The notes beneath the pieces were generated by a model. It saw only the letters and a program-made list of their open reading frames with translations, was not told where the DNA came from and made no database searches. From Halovenus rubra (GTDB lineage: Archaea > Halobacteriota > Halobacteria > Halobacteriales > Haloarculaceae), in the NCBI RefSeq assembly GCF_026586665.1, contig NZ_JAODIY010000043.1, positions 1-40,189 of the forward strand: 40,189 nt of DNA, in the 5' to 3' direction. Within the stretch, counting starts at the first letter, position 1, and each line of letters begins with the position of its first letter. The position numbers and the translations under genes were made by a program. This document shows, piece after piece, positions 8,137 through 24,810 of this stretch.

Positions 8137-8207
8137 TACCGTTATCGTCAAGCCAGAACAGGGTCCCAAGACTTCGTCGCCTCCCCGGAGACTGGGTGGT
8201 ACGGCAA

Positions 8208-8219
8208 CGATTTTTGTAT
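8208..8219 (+). promoter_or_regulatory. TATA-like box for the RPA operon
   Basis: CGATTTTTGTAT is centred about 27 bases before the ATG at 8241. It supports that start over the in-frame codon at 8196 and suggests a leaderless transcript. Confidence 0.45.
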
Positions 8220-8240
8220 GGGGGCGCCAAAAAGCGCGGT

Positions 8241-9515
8241 ATGAGTCTCGAAGACCATGCCGAGGAACTCGCCTCCAGCCTCGGTGTTGACAAAACGGAG
8301 GTCAAACAGAAGCTCGAAAATCTGGACCAGTACGGGGTCCCAATCGACGAGGCCAAGCAGACGGTCCGTCGCAACTATGATGAGAGTGATTCGGGAAGTC
8401 CAGAAGAGGTTTCGACCAAATCTATTGCCGAAATCACGACAGGTGACTCTCGCGTTGGCGTCGATGTCCGTATTCTCTCGGTTGGCAAACGGTCCATCCA
8501 GTACAACGGGGAACAGCATGTCATCTTCGAGGGAGAGATGGCAGACGAGAGTGGGAAGATTTCTTATACCTCGTGGGAGGATTTCGACCTCGAAACCGGC
8601 GAAACGGTTCATCTCGGAAACATAGATATCCGTGAATGGGAGGGCAACCCCGAACTCAACCTCGGTGATTCGACAAGCGTAGAACGACTGTCCGAGACAC
8701 TCGACGTTGAGTACGATGTGGGCGGCGACGCGACGCTCGCCTCGCTTGAACCCGGAGACCGTGGTGTGAATCTCGACGTACAGGTCCTTGAGACCGAACA
8801 AAAGACAATAAATGGGCGTGACGGCGAGACGGAGATTCTAAGTGGTGTCGTCGGCGACGAAACTGGGCGGTTGCCGTTCACTGACTGGGGACCCCGAGAG
8901 GCGTTATCTGTCGGGAACTCGGTTCGATTGGAAGACGTGTTTATCAGAGAGTTCCGAGGCGTTCCCTCGGTCAACGTTTCGGAGTTTACTACCGTTGCTG
9001 TACTGGATTCTACGGTCGAGGTTGCGGACTCTGGAACACGGTATCCTATCGGTGACGCAGTCGACACAGGCGGGATGTTTGACCTTGAACTGACTGGTAA
9101 CGTCGTCGCAGTCAGGGATGGGTCGGGCCTCATCGAGCGCTGTCCAGAGTGTGGCCGAGTAATCCAGAGTGGACAGTGTCGAACCCACGGCGAGGTCGAG
9201 GGCGAGGATGACCTCCGCGTGAAAGCTATTCTCGACGACGGAACTGGAACGGTGACAGTAGTTCTAGACGAAGTCCTCACCGCTGAGGTGTACGACGGTG
9301 ATCTTGACGATGCACGCGACCACGCACGAGATGCCATGGACAGAGAAGTCGTCGCCAAGGAGATTCGAGAGAACATCGTCGGGCAGGAGTTCCGCGTTCG
9401 GGGGACTCTGACTGTCGATGATTACGGCGCAAATCTTGAAGCCAGCGAGTTTACACGGCGCGTTGAGGACCCACAAGACAGGGCAAAACGCCTGCTTACG
9501 GAGGTGAAACCATGA
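8241..9515 (+). CDS. Replication protein A (RPA), single-stranded DNA-binding protein
   Basis: 424-residue RPA-type protein that coats single-stranded DNA in replication and repair. A short helical N-terminal domain (about 1-50, LEDHAEELASSLGVDKTEV) precedes three OB folds, near 60-150, 165-260 and 285-400. A zinc-finger insert, CPECGRVIQSGQCRTH, gives Cys301, Cys304, Cys313 and His316. The IGTAMT-like elements of the associated protein are absent here. Repeated motifs such as GVDVRIL and GVNLDVQVL mark the start of successive OB folds. It heads an operon with an RPA-associated protein and a phosphoesterase, an arrangement known from Haloferax volcanii rpa operons. Which of the Haloferax paralogues it equals is not certain; three OB folds plus zinc finger favours the Rpa1 type. 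Confidence 0.9.
   Translation: MSLEDHAEELASSLGVDKTEVKQKLENLDQYGVPIDEAKQTVRRNYDESDSGSPEEVSTKSIAEITTGDSRVGVDVRILSVGKRSIQYNGEQHVIFEGEMADESGKISYTSWEDFDLETGETVHLGNIDIREWEGNPELNLGDSTSVERLSETLDVEYDVGGDATLASLEPGDRGVNLDVQVLETEQKTINGRDGETEILSGVVGDETGRLPFTDWGPREALSVGNSVRLEDVFIREFRGVPSVNVSEFTTVAVLDSTVEVADSGTRYPIGDAVDTGGMFDLELTGNVVAVRDGSGLIERCPECGRVIQSGQCRTHGEVEGEDDLRVKAILDDGTGTVTVVLDEVLTAEVYDGDLDDARDHARDAMDREVVAKEIRENIVGQEFRVRGTLTVDDYGANLEASEFTRRVEDPQDRAKRLLTEVKP
9500..9507 (+). promoter_or_regulatory. Shine-Dalgarno site for the RPA-associated protein
   Basis: A perfect GGAGGTGA lies four bases before the ATG at 9512. With the ATGA overlap it shows that this second gene is started by ribosome binding, unlike the leaderless first gene. 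Confidence 0.65.
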
Positions 9516-11044
9516 GTGATTCCGAGGACGACAACATCGGCGACCGCGAAGTCGCATACCGACTGTTCGCCGCCGAGTTCGACGATGCCGACTACTCTTA
9601 CTCAGAGAGTGATGATGACCGCTCGCCAAACTACGTAATTACACCGACAGGTGCGCGGGTAAACCGCCTGTTTGCAGTCGGTGTATTGACCGCAGTCGAA
9701 GAGGTGAGCGATGACGTGCTCCGTGGCCGGGTCGTCGACCCGACAGGCGCATTCGTAACCTACGCTGGGCAGTACCAACCAGACGTACAGGCATTTCTGG
9801 AACGCGTCGACACACCGACGTTCGTCGCCATGACCGGGAAAGCACGAACCTTCCAGCCCGAGGATTCGGACCAAGTATTCACCTCTGTCCGCCCTGAGAG
9901 CATCAACGAGGTCGATGCAGAAACGCGAGACAGATGGACCGTACAAGCGGCGGAGCAAACGCTCGACCGTATCGGAACTATTGGGACTGCGATGACACGC
10001 GATACAACCGGTGACTCTCTGGAAGCTGAACTTCAGGACCTCGGTGTCAGGGCAAGTGTTGCTGCTGGAATACCGCTTGCTTTGAGTCACTACGAAACAA
10101 CTGCGACTTATCTCGACGCAGTACGTGACCTTGCACTGGATGCCGCCCAGGTTGTCGCTGGTGAACGCGACGAAGTTGACGAGCTACAAGCAAGCCCCGA
10201 CGAGCGTGGCACTGTCAGTGCAATGGAACTTGTCGACAGTGGTGTGAAAACAACAGCACCGATGGACAAGCCTGCGGCGAGCGAAAGCACAGAGACTGAT
10301 AACTCCCAGTCAACAGCGACAGAGACTGCCAGTTCCGATGAGGCCAGCGAGACATCTGTGGCTGACGCCACGGCTGAGCCCGAGTCAGTCGACTCAACGA
10401 CGGCTACAGATGTGTCACGACAAACAGAACCCGAAACGCAGGGAGACGATACTGGTGATTCGACCCAACCACAGGAAACAGCGACAGACACAGAGTCAGA
10501 GACTGTCAGCGAGGCGACAGAACCAGAGTCCGGGGAGTCAAACGCGCTGTCAGAGAGTGAAAGCGCAACTGAAAGCGGTGTCGACTCTCCGGATGACCTC
10601 GGTGACTTCGATCCAGACGAGTTTGAACTCGAAGAAGAAACTCGAGAACAGGTCAAAGAGGAGTTTGGGACAGAATTCCAGAGCGGAACCGAAGTCGGCA
10701 ACCCAGGGGAAGCCGATATCGAGACACCAGACCCGGAACCCGAGTCAGAATCTGATAAAACAAAAGCGGAGAGCTCCGAATCCAAGACAGCCGACGAAAG
10801 CGAATCTGCCATGGAGCATTCGGACGATAAACCAACCCAAAAACAGCCAGATGACTTGCAGGATGCAGTTGTCGAGTTGATGGCCGAGCTCGATGAGGGA
10901 GACGGGGCACGCAAAGCAGCCGTCGTTGAGGAAATGACCGGACGATACACTCTCGATGCAGACGAGATAGAGACCGCAATTCAGGATGCGCTGATGGACG
11001 GCGAATGCTACGAGCCGGGCGACGGGAGGCTCAAACCAATCTGA
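9512..11044 (+). CDS. RPA-associated protein (RPAP type)
   Basis: 510-residue partner of RPA. The N-terminal 220 residues contain an OB-like domain (ITPTGARVNRLFAVGVLTAV, then VDPTGAFVTYAGQYQP) followed by a helical part. Residues roughly 245-430 are an extremely Asp/Glu/Ser/Thr-rich low-complexity linker. The last 70 residues form a winged-helix-like domain (DAVVELMAELDEGDG...TAIQDALMDGECYE), comparable to the C-terminal wing of eukaryotic RPA32. The start overlaps the RPA stop by ATGA and is preceded by a strong Shine-Dalgarno site. Associated proteins of this kind bind their cognate RPA in Haloferax volcanii. The linker probably acts as a tether; that is inference. Confidence 0.85.
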   Translation: MSDSEDDNIGDREVAYRLFAAEFDDADYSYSESDDDRSPNYVITPTGARVNRLFAVGVLTAVEEVSDDVLRGRVVDPTGAFVTYAGQYQPDVQAFLERVDTPTFVAMTGKARTFQPEDSDQVFTSVRPESINEVDAETRDRWTVQAAEQTLDRIGTIGTAMTRDTTGDSLEAELQDLGVRASVAAGIPLALSHYETTATYLDAVRDLALDAAQVVAGERDEVDELQASPDERGTVSAMELVDSGVKTTAPMDKPAASESTETDNSQSTATETASSDEASETSVADATAEPESVDSTTATDVSRQTEPETQGDDTGDSTQPQETATDTESETVSEATEPESGESNALSESESATESGVDSPDDLGDFDPDEFELEEETREQVKEEFGTEFQSGTEVGNPGEADIETPDPEPESESDKTKAESSESKTADESESAMEHSDDKPTQKQPDDLQDAVVELMAELDEGDGARKAAVVEEMTGRYTLDADEIETAIQDALMDGECYEPGDGRLKPI

Positions 11045-11793
11045 TGAGGGTCGAACCGGTACCGGAGACCCCTGCAGGCGTCGTCGAAACAGGAAACCAG
11101 CGGCTGTTGGTCGTCGCTGACTATCATGCAGGTATCGAGGCGGTACTCAGGACGGAAGGTGTCGAGCTCGATTCGCGGGCAGACCAGCGACGAGACCGCA
11201 TTCGTCGACTCGTTTCGGAGACGGACCCTGATAGGCTGGTCGTGCTGGGAGACCTTGTACATGCAATCGCCGACCTTTGGGAGGCCGAACGTACCGAACT
11301 CACGGCGTTGTTCGATGCGCTTCACATTCCGGTCACACTCGTCAAAGGCAACCATGACGCCGAAATCGAGGAGTTTCTCGCAAGTATCAACCATGACATA
11401 ACAGTGACAGCATCGACAGGAAAACGATTTGAGACCGTCGGATTCGTCCACGGCCACACCTGGCCGTCTCCAAAGGTGTTAGGCGCAGATATCGTCTGTA
11501 TCGGACACGAACACCCCCTTGTCCGTCTCGAAGATACCGTCGGTGGGAGCAGAGTCGAGCGCATCTGGCTCCGGGGCACTCTCGATACGACGGTCTTCGA
11601 GACACACAGCAACGACTACAAGCCGTCTAGACCGGATCTCGTCGTGTTTCCTGCGTTCAACAACATCTCAGGAGGGACACACGTCAACATCGCCGAGCAA
11701 CAATTTCTCGCACCCTTTCTCCCTGAGGCGTTAACTGACGGAGATGCGTACCTGCTTGACGGCACGCGACTTGGAGGGTATAAGCGAGTCTGA
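11044..11793 (+). CDS. Metallophosphoesterase of the RPA operon
   Basis: 249-residue calcineurin-like phosphoesterase. Metal ligands are visible in order: VADYHAG (Asp26, His28), LGDLVHA (Asp70), KGNHD (Asn103, His104), HGHTWP (His136, His138) and IGHEHP (His155, His157). It belongs to the ICC-like group (COG1407). The ATG at 11044 overlaps the previous stop, and GGGAGG lies at 11024-11029, so I prefer it to the in-frame upstream codon at 11005. Operon position implies a role with RPA, possibly processing DNA ends or a phosphodiester intermediate. The actual substrate is unknown. Confidence 0.88.
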   Translation: MRVEPVPETPAGVVETGNQRLLVVADYHAGIEAVLRTEGVELDSRADQRRDRIRRLVSETDPDRLVVLGDLVHAIADLWEAERTELTALFDALHIPVTLVKGNHDAEIEEFLASINHDITVTASTGKRFETVGFVHGHTWPSPKVLGADIVCIGHEHPLVRLEDTVGGSRVERIWLRGTLDTTVFETHSNDYKPSRPDLVVFPAFNNISGGTHVNIAEQQFLAPFLPEALTDGDAYLLDGTRLGGYKRV

Positions 11794-13654: not shown

Positions 13655-16426
13655 ATGGACGCGCCGAACACATCTATGGATACGGCACTGGGTCCACCCG
13701 AAAAGATGGTGGAACGACGCGAAGATTTGACGCCGATGATGGCCCAGTACTACGACCTCTGTGCGCAGTACGACGACTCCCTCGTTTTGTTCCAGGTTGG
13801 TGACTTCTACGAGGCATTTTGTGGGGCTGCTGAGACAGTTGCACGCCAGTGTGAAGTGACACTCACGAAACGCGAGGACTCAACCGGTCAGTACGCGATG
13901 GCGGGCCTCCCTATCGACAACGCTGAGTCCTACGTCGAGCGCCTGCTAGAAGCTGGCTACCGGGTAGCAGTCGCCGACCAAGTTGAAGACCCCGAGGAGA
14001 CGACAGGCGTAGTCGAGAGGGCAGTGACACGAATCCTCACACCGGGGACGCTCACTGAGGACGAACTGCTGGACGGTGACCGCAACAACTACGTCGGTGC
14101 GCTGGCGACCGGCGACGTACACGCTCTGGCCGTACTGGACGTTTCGACCGGTGATTTCTATGCAACCAGCGTTGAGAACGCCGACGGCATACGGGATGAA
14201 CTCGGTCGGTTCGACCCGACGGAGGCAATTCTTGGCCCGAATGTGGCAGCGACACAGTTGCCTGACGGGTGTACTGTAAGCAGTTTTGGCGAAGACCCTT
14301 TCGAGGAAAAACAAGCACATGAACTGGTCGAGTCGTACGTTGGTTCAGTTGAGGGTCTGCTCGCGTCAACGGCCGAAATCCGGGCTTGTGGGGCATTGCT
14401 CTCGTATGCGGAGTACGTTCGTGGCGGCGTCGACGACCGTCTTGACTACCTGAATCACCTGACGCGATATGACCCGCATGAGTACATGCTATTGGACGCT
14501 GTCGCGGTTCGAAGTCTCGAGCTGTTCGAGCGGCGTACCGTCCACGGCGACGAGAGTAACACACTGGCGGCAGTACTCGACAAGACGGCCTCTGCACCGG
14601 GGCGACGGACTCTAGACGACTGGCTGCGACGCCCGCTTATCGAACGGGAAGCAATTGTTGAGCGCCACGATGCGGTTGGCGAACTCCGCGACAGCGTTTC
14701 GATGCGGGAAGGGATTTACGACCAGCTGCGAACAGTGTACGATATCGAACGGTTGATTTCCCGCATCGCACGTGGCCGGGCCAACGCGCGTGACCTTCGC
14801 TCGCTCAAGGCAACCCTCGATGTCGTCCCACGTATCCGCCAAGAGCTTGCTGAATCGAGTTGTGGCAAGCTCAACTCACTCAGGGACGAGCTTGATACGC
14901 TCGATGAAGTTCGGACGCTCATCGAACAGTCTGTCTGCGATAATCCGGACAAAGAAATCACGACAGGAGGCATTATCAAGCCGAGCTACAACGACGACCT
15001 CGCACGGCTTCGGGAAACCGAGCAAGACGGGAAGTCATGGATTGATGACCTCGAGGCCAGCGAACGAGAGCGAACGGGAATTGACTCACTGAAAGTCGGG
15101 CAGAACTCGGTACACGGCTATTATATCGAGGTGACAGATACTAATCTCGACAGCGTTCCGGACGATTACGAACGCCGGCAGACGCTGAAGAACGCTGAAC
15201 GATACTATACGCCCGAACTCAAGGAGCGAGAAGGCGAAATTCTCCGAGCCGAACAGCGAGCTGACGAGCTTGAGTACGAACTATTCTGTTCGGTTCGCAC
15301 GGAGGTCGCAGACGAGTCCGAGCGAATCCAGGCAGTGGCTGATTCGTTGGCCGAACTCGACGTGCTCGTCTCATTTGCAACCGTTGCAGCCGAACATGAT
15401 TACACCCGTCCAGTGGTTGGCACTGCTCCGAGTGACAGTCCGGCTGAAGGGACACTCACCGTTGACGGAATTCATATCGAAAATGGTCGACATCCAGTTG
15501 TGGAACGCACCGAGGAGTCATTCGTCCCAAACGGTACCATGCTTGATTCCGATGATCAAATTGCCGTTGTAACCGGGCCGAATATGAGCGGGAAGTCAAC
15601 GTATATGCGGCAGGTTGCGCTCATCGTGATACTTGCACAGGCAGGGAGCTTTGTCCCAGCGGAGTCAGCACGACTTCAGATTGTAGATCGTCTCTTTACA
15701 CGGGTCGGTGCAAGCGATGACATTGCTGGTGGGCGGTCAACGTTCATGATGGAGATGACTGAGCTTGCGGACATCCTCGACCATGCAACCGACCAATCGC
15801 TGGTTCTTCTCGATGAGGTTGGGCGCGGAACGAGTACTGTCGACGGCTTCGCGATTGCGCAAGCGGTGACAGAACAGATGCACGACGAGATTGGAGCGTT
15901 GACACTATTTGCGACACACCACCACGACCTGACGGGCATCGCTGAGAGTCTCGATAACGCACACAATCGCTATTTCAGGACACAACAGGACGAAGATGGT
16001 GTCTCCTTCGAGCACGCTGTCGAACGCGGGACGGCAGACGCTTCCTACGGAGTCGAAGTGGCAGCGACAGCCGGTGTTAATCAGTCAGTCGTCGACAGAG
16101 CACGCGAGGTTCTCGACGAACAGGCAGGTAGGGCAGAGACTGAACCGAGCGAACACCACGGAACTGCTGGACGGACTAGTCTAAACGGCCACAGTGGGTC
16201 TACAACAACGGAGCCCAAACAACAGCCACTCCATGGCGCTGACGACGAGGAGCCAACAGACGATGGAAACGGAAAACGTCTCAACGCAGATCTCCAGCAG
16301 GCACTCATTGAGGCCGATATTGCGACGATGACGCCGCTCGAAGCGATGAATAAACTCGCAAATCTACAGCAGGTGGTTGAAACGAACAGACGGAACACAG
16401 ATCCCAACCCGTCGAACTCATCTTGA
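13655..16426 (+). CDS. mutS: DNA mismatch repair protein MutS
   Basis: 923-residue mismatch-recognition ATPase. Domain I holds the Phe-X-Glu mismatch wedge (GDFYEAF, Phe51 and Glu53). Connector, lever and clamp regions follow, then the ABC-type ATPase with Walker [10 protein letters not shown] (about 641-649), Walker [12 protein letters not shown] (Asp720) and THHHD. After about residue 825 comes a Ser/Thr/Glu-rich linker and a helical tail ([15 protein letters not shown]). An ATG at 13676 opens [11 protein letters not shown], which looks more like the family's N-terminus and is a good alternative start. No mutL lies next to it. It has its own promoter region divergent from rpiA. NucS, a different mismatch enzyme, is encoded 0.75 kb downstream. 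Confidence 0.95.
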
Positions 16427-17177: not shown

Positions 17178-17909
17178 TTAGCTATCTGTCACCGGTTGCA
17201 GTGGGATAAAGGCGAGTCCGTACTTATCTAGTAAATGTTGGGCTCGTTCAGTCACGGATGGCGCAACGAGAATGCCACGGACACTTTTTTCGGCGTGAAG
17301 GTCGCGTTTCAACGCCTCGACGTAACGATTGAGTTGGCTGGCCGCGTCAGGACCGACTCGTCGCCGCTTGAGTTCGACGACAACAGCGTTATCATCAGCG
17401 TCGGTTCCATAGATATCTACCGCGCCAGCAGGGGTTTCACGCTCGGTCGCCCGCGGCTCGAAGCCGTCTTCGAGCATTTCGGGGTCCGAAAGAATACGTT
17501 CCCGCATATCTGCTTCTGTCCCCTGCAATGAGAGGTTCTGATCGTCGGTCACGTCGTAAGCAACCGCGTGAGCGACAAACTCGAAGGAGACCGTGAGTTC
17601 TTCGGAAGGGGTGTCACGATGGCTACGTATTTCGAGCGTATCGGTGACCGTAACCTCCTGCGAGCACCCTGGTGGTTGCCAGTTCACCGGCTGTTGTCCT
17701 TCTTCAGTATGGACGAGAACCGTCCCGTCAGGCTTGAGAACGACCAGACGGTCACCGGCGTCAAGAGTGCTCGATGCACGGCCGTCGTAATCGACGCGAC
17801 AGCGACCCAAGACGCTGATCAGCATACTGTTTTCCAATCCGGACGCGACGAGGTCACAAGCTTGTTCGTGGCTAGGTTCGTACGCGGTCAGTGGCCCTCC
17901 GTTGCTCAC
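17178..17909 (-). CDS. nucS: Mismatch-specific endonuclease NucS (EndoMS)
   Basis: 243-residue nuclease. The N-terminal half is the DNA-binding and dimer domain (LGRCRVDYDGRA, then VHTEEGQQPVNWQPPGC). The C-terminal half is a RecB-like nuclease with AGAVDIYG (Asp165), VVVELKRR (Glu179, Lys181) and Gln192 of ASQLNRYV. NucS enzymes cut both strands at mismatches in archaea and actinobacteria. The frame starts at 17954, but a strong TATA box at 17928-17939 lies inside that extension. The GTG at 17909, 24 bases beyond the box, is therefore the likely leaderless start. It is convergent with the small membrane-protein gene and near mutS. Confidence 0.92.
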   Translation of the reverse strand: MSNGGPLTAYEPSHEQACDLVASGLENSMLISVLGRCRVDYDGRASSTLDAGDRLVVLKPDGTVLVHTEEGQQPVNWQPPGCSQEVTVTDTLEIRSHRDTPSEELTVSFEFVAHAVAYDVTDDQNLSLQGTEADMRERILSDPEMLEDGFEPRATERETPAGAVDIYGTDADDNAVVVELKRRRVGPDAASQLNRYVEALKRDLHAEKSVRGILVAPSVTERAQHLLDKYGLAFIPLQPVTDS

Positions 17910-17927
17910 AGAGAAGATAGGCAACCT

Positions 17928-17939
17928 GAATATAAAAGG
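17928..17939 (-). promoter_or_regulatory. TATA box for nucS
   Basis: The minus strand reads CCTTTTATATTC, a strong archaeal TATA element, centred 24 bases before the GTG at 17909. It excludes the longer open frame starting at 17954. Confidence 0.6.
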
Positions 17940-18052
17940 AACACTGTTTGGCACCCCCGTTTCAGAAAAATAGCGTTGCTAACAGAACACAGTCACGTCG
18001 CCTTGTTCTCAGTAGATACTGTACCCACAGAGAGTCCAAGAATCGGTGTCGG

Positions 18053-19108: not shown

Positions 19109-21358
19109 ATGGAACGTCTCATCAACCTAACGGAGTCTGCAGAAAATACAGATATACTGACAAGCACAACAGTAAACGGGGGATTACTGGGTGGTGACGA
19201 AATCTTAGCCACTTCACCTCTTGCAAGCTATCTTCATGAAGAGGAAAAACCAAAATACGCGCTCCGAAACAAAAGCGCTGGCATCGAGATACAGGACGGC
19301 ACAGACACGGACCAGATTACACCGAGCGATGATTTACAGGCCCTGGCTCTCGTAACAGACCTGCGCGTTCTGGTCGTTGTCGGGCAGCAAGACGGCGATA
19401 TCAAACTGGAAGTACCACTCTCGGATGTTGTCGAGGCAAAGACAGAAGAGAAAAGATTTCGAACGAGCGTTCTCGTCATTACAACTCTTTCCGGAGAGAG
19501 ATGGGAATTTCCCAGCAAAACCGACAGCGAGCCGTTTGCGACCACTGTCGACGAGTTCGCACAGCTCTGGACACACTCCTACCGGTTGTTAGACGAGGCA
19601 GCACAACAGGTTGAATCGGTGAAAGACGCCGTTGAACGGGGTGATGTCGACGATGCTCGTGAACGAGTAGATATCATTGAAGACAAAATCGAGAACGCAA
19701 AGACTCATATTAGCGAAGTGGGGCTAGCAGCAAAACAACGAGTCAAAACACGGGCAGAGAAAATCAGTAATCGACTCGTCGATACCAGACGGGAGCTGTC
19801 TGCTGCCGAGGGAGCACTGGCACATGCGCGGGCACAGCAAAAGTGGCGAGAAGAGTCGTATGAGTCCGCCGCACGGCGGTTTGAAGAGACAATCAAGGCA
19901 TACCAGCGGGCCCTCTCGACACACGGACAGACGCCACCAGACGACGTACTCAGGATGCGGCTGAAAGGCGCAGCGACGGAACGAGAGTTGCTCCGTGTAA
20001 GTCCACTCGTCGATGCTGATACAGAGCGTCGACGGGCTATCAACGAACCGGACCCAGAGAAAGCCGCCACTGCCTGGAAGTGCGCGTTAGACAACTACAG
20101 AGAACTGCTCACTCTTGATTGGGGCAAAGAGACCCGTAATTTCCTTGTCGACAGAGACACTATTCGAGACCAGACGGTCAGTATTGCCGACGACGCGATT
20201 GAGGACCATCTCGCCGCTGGGGAGCAATGGCTGGAATCGGGGGACAGATTGGCAGTTGGTGGTCACGACCAGCAAGCTCGGGAGGTGTATGGACGTGCCC
20301 AGACCCAGTTCCAGAACGCAAACGAGCTTGCAAAAGAGGTTCGTCCTGAGCAACTGGACCAAATTAGGGACGCGATGGCAACCGTTGAGGAACGGTTGTC
20401 GGGAGATGTTCCCGACGAGGTTCCAACGAACTCGACGCTCGATACGGTCGACATTTCGGCCCCGGACGGTATGAGTAACTCCCAGCAACGCGCGGTCGAT
20501 GAATCTGATTCAACAGACCAAGGACAACAGAGTTCGTCAGGTCGTGATGAAGTGGACAATCACGACCGGAACAACCCAGAACTCGTTACCGAGTTAGAGT
20601 CACCAGACCCAGCGCTGCCGGCAGAGGAATCCACTGCAAGCCAACAAGATCCCGACGAAACAGAGACCGAATCCGAAAAAAGCGAGTCTCACGCCAGTGA
20701 GGCTGAGGCTGAGACTGGAAGTGTTCCGTCCGGAACGGATAATTCTGGGAAGTCAGTTCTCGATCAGATTCGGTCGAGTAAACAAACCGAAGAGAAAAAG
20801 ACTGAAAACGAGCATGCTGGCAGTGTCACAGACGATTCCACGCTGAACCAACCCGCCCAAACAACGGGCTCAACTGACCGGGCAGCAGAGACAAACGATG
20901 CGAGTCACAACGTTGGAGACAAACAAGAGACACACTCTGGACAGAGCAGTACGGTCGAGACCAAACTGGCAATGCTTTCAGAGGCGCAGTTCAAGACCCT
21001 TGTCTCAGAGCTATGGGAGGCCCAAGGCTGGTCAACAGTACCGGAGTCTGCCCAAGCAGCGTCCGCATTTGACGTGCTTGCATTACGTGAGCGGCCAAGA
21101 GAGGAACGTCTCGGAATATGGACTGTCCACAGACCACAGGATACGGTCGATACTGAGGATGTCGTCGATTGCAGGATGGCACTCGCAGAGAGCCAAGGAG
21201 CAGAGTCAGCAACAATTGTTACGACTGCGGAAGTCTCTGAAAAAGTTAAACAGGACGCAGAGGAGCGAGATTTCGCTGTCGTGGGCAGGTCGGACCTGAC
21301 GCAATTACTTAGATTCGAAGACCTTGTTGACCGTTTGGACCGATTTGCTACTGGGTAG
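19109..21358 (+). CDS. PH-like / helical / degenerate Mrr-type nuclease-fold protein
   Basis: 749-residue multidomain protein. Residues about 25-155 look like a bacterial PH-like domain (LALVTDLRVLVVVGQQDGD, then RTSVLVITTLSGERWEF). Residues 160-430 are helical, with coiled-coil and TPR-like stretches (EESYESAARRFEETIKAYQ). Residues 430-615 are an acidic, Ser/Thr-rich linker. Residues 622-735 resemble the restriction-endonuclease fold of the Mrr family (LSEAQFKTLVSELWEAQGW, then AFDVLAL with Asp655). The expected Gln-X-Lys of that family is replaced by Thr672-Val-His674, so cleavage activity is doubtful. It lies in the accessory patch and has its own upstream region. It may be a sensor or adaptor that still binds DNA; function unknown. 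Confidence 0.65.
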   Translation: MERLINLTESAENTDILTSTTVNGGLLGGDEILATSPLASYLHEEEKPKYALRNKSAGIEIQDGTDTDQITPSDDLQALALVTDLRVLVVVGQQDGDIKLEVPLSDVVEAKTEEKRFRTSVLVITTLSGERWEFPSKTDSEPFATTVDEFAQLWTHSYRLLDEAAQQVESVKDAVERGDVDDARERVDIIEDKIENAKTHISEVGLAAKQRVKTRAEKISNRLVDTRRELSAAEGALAHARAQQKWREESYESAARRFEETIKAYQRALSTHGQTPPDDVLRMRLKGAATERELLRVSPLVDADTERRRAINEPDPEKAATAWKCALDNYRELLTLDWGKETRNFLVDRDTIRDQTVSIADDAIEDHLAAGEQWLESGDRLAVGGHDQQAREVYGRAQTQFQNANELAKEVRPEQLDQIRDAMATVEERLSGDVPDEVPTNSTLDTVDISAPDGMSNSQQRAVDESDSTDQGQQSSSGRDEVDNHDRNNPELVTELESPDPALPAEESTASQQDPDETETESEKSESHASEAEAETGSVPSGTDNSGKSVLDQIRSSKQTEEKKTENEHAGSVTDDSTLNQPAQTTGSTDRAAETNDASHNVGDKQETHSGQSSTVETKLAMLSEAQFKTLVSELWEAQGWSTVPESAQAASAFDVLALRERPREERLGIWTVHRPQDTVDTEDVVDCRMALAESQGAESATIVTTAEVSEKVKQDAEERDFAVVGRSDLTQLLRFEDLVDRLDRFATG

Positions 21359-21405: not shown

Positions 21406-21990
21406 ATGGAGTATTCGCTGGAAATCGAAACTGCGCCAGAGTCGGTACCTGCGGGTAGCAGTATCTTGCTCGTCCATCCAAGTACTGCCGAAACCGACCG
21501 GATTGATACACAGTTCCTCAAGACAGACACTGACCGATTACTGGTCGTCTCGACACGAACAACCGCTCGTGAGGTAAAACAGAAGCTAGAGCACTACGAT
21601 GTCGATGAGTCGAAAGCAACAATTCTTGATACGCTCTCGACCCAGCGCGGATACACTCGCCGACAAAGCGATGATATCCGCTATCTTTCGGCGCCAGAAA
21701 ACCTCGAGAGCGTTGTTGAGGAAACGCGGGACTTTCTCGAACAGAGCGAAGGGAAACGGCGCGTGAGTATTGATTCGATAACCGAGATGATATACTACGG
21801 TGACCAGACACAGACGCTCGAAGCCGTTAAATCACTGCTGGAGCAACTCGAACGACACGATGCAGTCGGCCTGTTCCATCTTGCACGCGGTGTTCACGAA
21901 GAGGATGTCATTGACGAGTTCCGTGGCGAGTTCGATAATGTCATCGAACTAGACGAAAGCGGAAACGTAACTTCGGAGTTTGGCCACTAA
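21406..21990 (+). CDS. RecA/KaiC-fold-like protein lacking Walker A
   Basis: 194-residue acidic protein of a conserved haloarchaeal group (I think DUF7090 or DUF7504-like, name uncertain). The beta-strand order looks like a RecA/KaiC core: SSILLVHPSTAETDRI at the position of the P-loop, RLLVVSTRTTAREV, then RRVSIDSITEM and AVGLFHLARGVHEE. The GxxxxGK(S/T) loop is absent, so ATP binding is unlikely. A TATA-like ATACTTAAGG lies about 30 bases before the ATG at 21406. It follows the nuclease-fold gene by 47 bases on the same strand, but its own promoter suggests independent expression. Related proteins are thought to be regulatory; function not established. Confidence 0.6.
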   Translation: MEYSLEIETAPESVPAGSSILLVHPSTAETDRIDTQFLKTDTDRLLVVSTRTTAREVKQKLEHYDVDESKATILDTLSTQRGYTRRQSDDIRYLSAPENLESVVEETRDFLEQSEGKRRVSIDSITEMIYYGDQTQTLEAVKSLLEQLERHDAVGLFHLARGVHEEDVIDEFRGEFDNVIELDESGNVTSEFGH

Positions 21991-23621: not shown

Positions 23622-24707
23622 TTACTCGATATCAGCGAGTCGTGCCGCGATGCGATGGGCACCAACTGTTGCCGCGAGGTCGGGTCGGTCGGCAGTGGTA
23701 GCGTTGACATCGCGACCCAACTCCTCGCTCACGCGTTCCTCGAACTGCTCAACGATACCCGGAACACATGCCATCCCACCAGTGAGGACAATTGGCTGGT
23801 CGAGAGCGAGCTGATAAATTTTCATGTGGTCGTTTGCAAGCTGTGAGAGGAACGTATTCGAGAATTTCTGGACAGCCTCGTCTAGGTACTCGTTGGCCGC
23901 ATCCATCACCGACCGCTCGATAGTGAACTCATGGCTTCCGCCGCCTGGCTGCTGGATAATATCGGTAAACGGTTCAAATCCGTCGAAGTCAGCGTGTTCT
24001 TCCTTGTACTCACGAGCCTGTGTCTCGTCGATATTGACCCGGCCTTGTGTCTCCTCTTCGACGTAGTTTGCGATGATTCGGTCGACTTCGTTGCCCGTGA
24101 CAGCGCCAGTGGTAAACGGTGCAATTTGCTCACCGCGGCGGTACGCCGACGCCTCAAGGTTGGTCGAACCCATGTTGACAGCAAGAAAGATCTCTTCGAT
24201 AGCCTGCAGGTCGTCACCAAAGGCCGGAATAGACCCACAGAGAGACTCGGGATAGCTCTCGATGAGATGGTCACCGATGGAGCTACTCTCGATAACGTTA
24301 CTAAGATTTTCTAGTCCCGCAGGATTGTCAATTGTCGGAATTGCATAGACAACGGCACTATCCTCAGGAATATCGTAGGAGTCGATGACCGCCTCGAAAA
24401 ACTGCTGTGTCAGTTCAGCGCGGTCCTCATCTTCGGGCAACCCGGACCGGAGCATGAACTCAACGCGGTCGGGATACTCGCGTGCAGCCTCGTTTCCATA
24501 GAGGTATTTCTCCTCTCCGGTGAGGGCGTCCTCGTAGCGTGCCAAACAAGTCAGGGTTCGTATTGTCTTGAGGTTCCCTTCCTCTGTCGGGTGAACGATG
24601 ACTGTTCGCGTGCTTCCCAGTTTGACGCCGACTGGGACGGCGTCATCGTCGGCAACAGTGACGTCTGCCGACAACTCTTCGATTTCGGCGTCGACGTGTG
24701 AACTCAT
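23622..24707 (-). CDS. Salactin-type actin homologue
   Basis: 361-residue protein with the actin/Hsp70 ATPase layout: VPVGVKLGSTRTVIV at the phosphate-1 position, FLAVNMGSTNLEASAY at phosphate-2, and PIVLTGGMACVPGIVEQF at the adenosine motif. It looks like the haloarchaeal actin family represented by salactin of Halobacterium salinarum, a dynamically unstable filament-forming protein. Compared with classical actins the phosphate-loop aspartates appear replaced (Lys in the first, Asn in the second). The frame is open to 24794, but a TATA box at 24731-24743 places the leaderless start at the ATG at 24707. Assignment to salactin is from motif layout and memory of the family, not from an alignment. 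Confidence 0.7.
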   Translation of the reverse strand: MSSHVDAEIEELSADVTVADDDAVPVGVKLGSTRTVIVHPTEEGNLKTIRTLTCLARYEDALTGEEKYLYGNEAAREYPDRVEFMLRSGLPEDEDRAELTQQFFEAVIDSYDIPEDSAVVYAIPTIDNPAGLENLSNVIESSSIGDHLIESYPESLCGSIPAFGDDLQAIEEIFLAVNMGSTNLEASAYRRGEQIAPFTTGAVTGNEVDRIIANYVEEETQGRVNIDETQAREYKEEHADFDGFEPFTDIIQQPGGGSHEFTIERSVMDAANEYLDEAVQKFSNTFLSQLANDHMKIYQLALDQPIVLTGGMACVPGIVEQFEERVSEELGRDVNATTADRPDLAATVGAHRIAARLADIE

Positions 24708-24730
24708 ACGTAGCTCCCTTCTCGCGCACA

Positions 24731-24743
24731 CTGTATATATCAA
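24731..24743 (-). promoter_or_regulatory. TATA box for the actin homologue
   Basis: On the minus strand GATATATACAG is centred about 29 bases before the ATG at 24707. It lies within the longer open frame and thereby rules out the start at 24794. Confidence 0.55.
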
Positions 24744-24810
24744 CCGAAACCTATCACTTTCAACTATGTGTTCGTACCCCGTCGTGTCTGTCAAGACAAA
24801 AGTCCTTAAA

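Follow-up and report, generated by a model that had tools for sequence, protein, structure and literature searches.

Results

The window analyzed in this study, i.e., the whole 40,189-nt stretch of Halovenus rubra DNA, contains an uninterrupted reading frame of 749 codons (positions 19109-21358, + strand) that encodes the protein P0001. A genome search found a single full-length copy in its own genome, together with a more distant family member elsewhere (G000:C43:11199-12443). On the basis of the ORF list, Pfam, AlphaFold2 and homologues, P0001 is a PH-helical-iREase protein of 749 aa. It begins with a PH-like domain (residues 1-140; 19109-19528), predicted by AlphaFold2 as a sheet with strands at residues 48-136 and recognized by its likeness to PH folds, followed by a predicted helical domain of nine helices that is TPR-like or tandem MIT-like (residues 141-431; 19529-20401). 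A linker predicted to be disordered, with pLDDT mostly <50 (residues 435-608; 20411-20932), leads to an inactive Mrr/PD-(D/E)XK domain (residues 610-748; 20936-21352) in which D655 is kept and W671-T672-V673 replaces Q-x-K; all of these lie on the + strand. The AlphaFold2 model, made from an alignment of 16 rows, has a mean pLDDT of 77.9 and renders the C-terminal part as a well-ordered, high-confidence alpha/beta domain with a PD-(D/E)XK core. The sole Pfam match in P0001 is Mrr_cat (PF04471; residues 622-733, E 3.3e-8), which scores 34.1 bits vs. a curated cut-off of 21. An earlier note on this DNA had described a PH-like front, a helical middle, a long linker and an Mrr-like fold derived from a restriction enzyme; the model and the fold matches bear out this layout, and the Mrr_cat match supports the proposed derivation. 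The pieces are of known kinds, and their combination is absent from our literature searches, which covered open-licence PMC papers (so that absence is unproven) and returned neither such an architecture nor a description of a salactin adaptor.

In the window, the gene order runs from an SSB/RPA-like OB protein (8196-9515) through MutS (13655-16426, +; Pfam), NucS endonuclease (17178-17954, -; Pfam), the P0001 gene, DUF7090 (RecA/KaiC-like fold; 21406-21990, +) and GlmM to salactin, the haloarchaeal actin (23622-24794, -; PF25229, E 1.9e-183). Examined loci and the tree described below link NucS to the clade of the window protein. Salactin is convergent with the P0001 gene at a distance of about 2.3 kb, with DUF7090 and GlmM in between, and the order from MutS to salactin is the same in two relatives of the window's genus (L102 and L103). 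DUF7090 is the next gene after that of P0001, across a 47-nt gap, and it holds the place beside the family gene in all five other loci examined of the window's genus. It was rejected as a specific partner, being nearly universal in the order (93/99 genomes; 80/80 good-quality ones) and adjacent to the family gene only in the window's genus.

Several other features of the neighborhood were recorded. DUF7090 matches a RecA/KaiC-like profile, yet there is no Walker A GK[ST] in its sequence. A short ORF between NucS and the P0001 gene (18053-18556, -) belongs to no Pfam family and has homologues in the same place in L031, L102 and L103. Upstream of MutS and NucS, positions 8196-11793 form a probable RPA-type operon composed of the SSB-like OB protein, a 510-aa ORF without a match and a calcineurin-like phosphoesterase.

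Structure comparison with VIA-align placed the C-terminal domain of P0001 closest to AF1548 (1Y88; Z 15.5, rmsd 1.8 Å over 110 residues), with further matches to MspJI (Z 10.8), Cdn1 and NucS (2vld; Z 10.1). The N-terminal domain resembled the PH domains of Vps36, DUF1696 and MTMR2 at Z of about 10, as exemplified by 2cay (Z 10.0) and 3dcx (Z 9.7). Pfam gave no bPH_3 (PF14470) match in P0001 itself; in the relatives L040 and L061 this profile scored 27.9 and 32.6 bits, above the cut-off of 23. When modeled alone with AlphaFold2, the helical domain had a mean pLDDT of 92.5 and nine helices, and its best match was the tandem MIT of calpain-7 (Z 11.5, rmsd 10.7), closely followed by TPR, spectrin and 14-3-3; by VIA's own caution, a helical-domain Z <13 may reflect merely a common arrangement of helices. 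An MIT profile scored 20.8 and 20.5 bits in two relatives, below its cut-off of 30. The fold-match list for the full P0001 model was dominated by other domains, and Foldseek returned no match at E ≤0.001 with either the full model or the isolated helical domain as query. Assignment of the helical domain to a defined fold was dropped, given the negative Foldseek result and VIA matches within the range where values mean little. Sequence searches against solved structures gave merely weak or designed-protein matches.

We aligned the C-terminal domains of the family (30 rows, 29 distinct sequences; fragment L081 and L070, the latter a control, were left out) with 13 haloarchaeal Mrr domains from outside the family, chosen from search matches (12 fetched regions plus L070). 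In 13 of 13 controls, I-Q-A-K-R-Y follows the [G]-[IV]-D motif, at the place where P0001 reads I-W-T-V-H. Asp655 of P0001 aligns with an Asp present in every control, and this column holds D in 25 and E in two of the 30 family rows. At the catalytic columns, by contrast, Q or K occurs in 0/30 family rows vs. 13/13 controls. No Lys column anywhere in the domain is kept in ≥60% of the family rows, and none of the 30 rows places an intact site elsewhere. The Mrr-like order that the earlier note had read, including Asp655, is thus confirmed by fold and alignment, and the loss of Gln-X-Lys that it had seen in one protein extends to the whole family; its register of Thr672-Val-His674 was off by one, as Gln corresponds to W671 and Lys to V673. 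Hydrophobic residues predominate in the catalytic columns (W/L/V at 671, V/I at 673). W stands in place of Gln in all 11 rows from the window's genus and genus g8, indicating that the change at the site is patterned rather than random decay.

The dead Mrr domain is under purifying selection in most pairs tested. Its dN/dS in seven usable pairs was 0.18, 0.38, 0.19, 0.39, 0.31, 0.68, and 0.36, while the PH-helical part ranged over 0.12-0.34 and the linker over 0.30-0.82. The comparison of the window with L102, the eighth pair, was saturated. The linker value exceeded those of both flanking domains in 6/7 usable pairs.

Among the matches listed (150 rows, a lower bound on members), the full-length PH-helical core occurs only in Haloarculaceae, and elsewhere in the order matches are confined to the PH part or to separate Mrr domains. 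In a tree of 62 N-domains, built from loci selected from search matches rather than at random, a branch (99/95) splits 26 salactin-adjacent rows from the NucS/DUF7090-linked rows; P0001 falls in the latter group, sister to the salactin-adjacent clade. Both main clades include members with the C-terminal Mrr domain, and many members, those of Haloarcula among them, are without it, a distribution suggesting that the domain is probably ancestral to the family and has been repeatedly lost.

The relationship between the family and salactin was surveyed in 146 Haloarculaceae genomes, 103 of which hold a total of 120 salactin places. These counts omit five weak fragment rows (two in G224, two in G313, and one in G329, C99), and G370 was counted once although its salactin is split in two pieces. 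In at least 46 of the 103 salactin genomes, from 7 of 16 genera, a family gene immediately follows salactin on its strand, with 131-663 nt between the matched parts. The tight position beside salactin in the opposite orientation holds no family member among the matches listed. By genus, direct downstream linkage occurs in at least 24/32 (g3), 7/7 (g6), 7/8 (g7), 3/8 (g11), 2/6 (g5), 2/6 (g8), and 1/1 (g92) salactin genomes, and in none of the remaining nine genera among the matches listed, including the window's own (g1; 0/10). In that genus, the two genes are convergent, at 3-5.3 kb between matched parts, in at least four of 10 salactin genomes, including that of the window. Salactin-linked members of Haloarcula have no Mrr domain, which is therefore not needed for the linkage.

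At least 62 of the 96 good-quality genomes carry a long family member, and all 62 of these have salactin; among the matches listed, no long family member was found in the 16 good-quality genomes that are free of salactin. Ten genomes with the family and no salactin match are all <90% complete (among the matches listed). The Fisher value for co-occurrence is 3e-9, which ignores kinship, and a single gain in one clade could produce the same; linkage and co-occurrence counts alike treat genomes as independent of kinship. Conversely, 18 of 80 good-quality salactin genomes are without a listed family member, and none of the 20 salactin loci fetched from outside Haloarculaceae has one, so salactin does not need the family protein. 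Many of the spacers to salactin measure around 400 nt, which is long for an operon. Further genes upstream of salactin are common to 14/23 loci; since regional synteny is partly conserved there, some of the linkage may reflect an inherited gene order.

Salactin has other neighbors as well. A protein with the archaellum FlaD/E domain (Arch_fla_DE) is encoded immediately upstream of salactin in the same orientation (e.g., L035:12036-12536, -) in 22/28 loci with a family member and in 11/20 loci outside Haloarculaceae, with gaps that go down to a 3-nt overlap, and is likely an operon partner of salactin. The window has no such protein upstream of salactin; a cupin takes that place. In two relatives of the window's genus, two salactin copies flank an archaellum-like cluster of FlaC/FlaDE and KaiC-type ATPase genes (L100:5574-10135 and L101:5083-9862).

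Discussion

In the current study, we characterized a family of haloarchaeal proteins that joins a PH-helical core to a restriction-enzyme fold stripped of its catalytic residues. Several of its parts have close known counterparts. Mrr_cat/AF1548-type PD-(D/E)XK domains (PF04471; 1Y88) have the fold, element order and catalytic Asp in common with P0001; unlike them, the family has no Gln-x-Lys in any of the 30 rows, and a PH-helical region replaces the recognition domain. A degenerate site in a kept fold also marks the iREase domains of conflict systems such as NA-iREase1 (PF22722), which the C-domain of L031 matches weakly (20.3 bits, cut-off 27), whereas P0001 has no NACHT, STAND or Orc ATPase and sits in a core-gene setting rather than a defence island. 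PH domains related to those of the family are found in bacterial bPH_3 proteins (PF14470) and in the haloarchaeal Mrr-PH protein L113, which like P0001 joins PH to Mrr in one protein, but differs from it in having a complete I-Q-A-K-R-Y site and in the absence of a long helical domain. L113 (784-2439, +) is a 551-aa protein of another haloarchaeal family, with a second PH domain after the intact Mrr domain. NucS/EndoMS likewise consists of a PH-like domain followed by a PD-(D/E)XK domain, and is also encoded by a neighboring gene, but does not have the helical domain or the long linker. Paralogy with NucS was considered and ruled out by profile comparison of the two families (hhalign), which gave probabilities of 0.2% and 0.8%. 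The helical domain may resemble calpain-7 tandem MIT and TPR proteins, going by the structural comparison, with the MIT profile staying below cut-off in relatives.

The pairing of salactin with a family gene also recalls ParM-ParR-type segregation systems. In ParM-ParR, the actin is likewise dynamically unstable and an accessory gene lies adjacent to that of the actin. ParR binds a centromere through a ribbon-helix-helix fold; for salactin, no centromere is known.

According to the passages on salactin in PMC10746226, this protein is one of the few actins shown to be dynamically unstable, its filaments extend from the cell poles, and in its absence the distribution of DNA is perturbed at low phosphate; its authors propose a "kinetochore-like" chromosomal site. 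The same passages name no adaptor for salactin. In H. salinarum and its close relatives, they report genes of replication and repair in the vicinity of the salactin gene, with synteny otherwise poor; they judge the genomic surroundings in Halobacterium and near relatives to be uninformative, and leave the link to DNA unexplained (PMC10746226). Because the family accompanies and often adjoins salactin, it may help the filament work rather than fight viruses. Our tentative proposal, to which we assign a probability of roughly 0.4, is that the family, including P0001, acts within the salactin actin system as an accessory or adaptor and that its dead Mrr domain binds DNA without cutting it. Among the roles considered, that of a salactin accessory is the most likely one, the docking of the PH-helical core on a partner being suggested by linkage and co-occurrence. 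The putative holding of a ligand by the dead Mrr domain would be in keeping with its fold and with the inactive REases treated in parts of PMC12839542, by analogy.

If this proposal is correct, the partner on which the PH-helical core docks would be salactin, the membrane or a protein at the pole, and the dead Mrr domain, at the end of a flexible linker of ~170 residues, would hold DNA or another ligand uncut. The protein would thereby tie a filament that is dynamically unstable to a cellular site or to the chromosome, and members without an Mrr domain would act via the PH-helical core alone. Of the "sensor or adaptor" that the earlier note had envisaged, the adaptor is thus the favored half, but for the salactin cytoskeleton. 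A bolder version would make the family the adaptor still missing from archaeal actin-based chromosome partitioning, with a catalysis-stripped REase domain as its kinetochore-like DNA handle; this is something of a long shot. Two features of the window speak against a salactin accessory: P0001 belongs to the NucS-linked clade and not to the salactin-adjacent one, and DUF7090 and GlmM separate its gene from salactin. An ancient cluster of repair genes, family gene and salactin that was later duplicated could account for both the salactin-linked and the NucS-linked clades.

The main rival for the window's clade, and a serious one despite being somewhat doubtful in our estimation, is that these proteins are DNA-repair adaptors which work with NucS, MutS and RPA-like genes, the dead Mrr domain serving to recognize DNA structures or to compete with an active nuclease. 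Consistent with this, the genes for the OB protein, MutS and NucS precede that of P0001 in the window, and NucS and MutS are both found close to the clade member in all four of the examined Haloarcula loci (L051-L054), as is NucS in L031, L102, and L103. However, the NucS-linked members of Haloarcula have no Mrr domain, and the sister clade is located at salactin rather than at repair genes. Moreover, salactin itself lies near repair genes in Halobacterium, according to the passages on salactin in PMC10746226, so the neighborhood may be old synteny rather than function. It is also conceivable, if unlikely, that the dead Mrr domain is a protein-protein or small-ligand module (or is partly needed) and that the protein makes no contact with DNA. 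Loss of the domain in many relatives and the mostly hydrophobic fill of the catalytic columns would fit such a module; retention of D655 in 25/30 rows is more than a free scaffold would need.

The earlier note had raised a possible link to defence, and a defence sensor that originated from a restriction enzyme would agree with the Mrr-like domain and with the inactive REases that occur in defence systems, as described in portions of PMC10853773 and PMC12839542. The sole PADLOC match of P0001 points in the same direction, being a weak, generic and domain-level match to the ZorD Mrr domain (E 2.8e-5). Yet the neighbors are core genes (RPA, MutS, NucS, GlmM, and salactin) in a stable arrangement, Pfam detected no restriction, CRISPR or toxin-antitoxin genes among the 19 other window ORFs and nine more, and a search of a plasmid collection gave no match. 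A defence island was rejected on this context together with the weakness of the PADLOC match and the plasmid result, and the core-gene setting makes a defence role very improbable. Least credible of all is an active nuclease with a displaced catalytic lysine: D655 is kept, but Gln and Lys are both lost in 30/30 rows and no Lys column reaches 60%, for which reason this candidate was discarded.

With respect to the salactin-accessory role, a family that tracks salactin in both presence and position across an archaeal family offers a concrete candidate partner for this actin. If that role is true, the dead Mrr domain would represent a non-defence use of an inactive restriction-enzyme fold.
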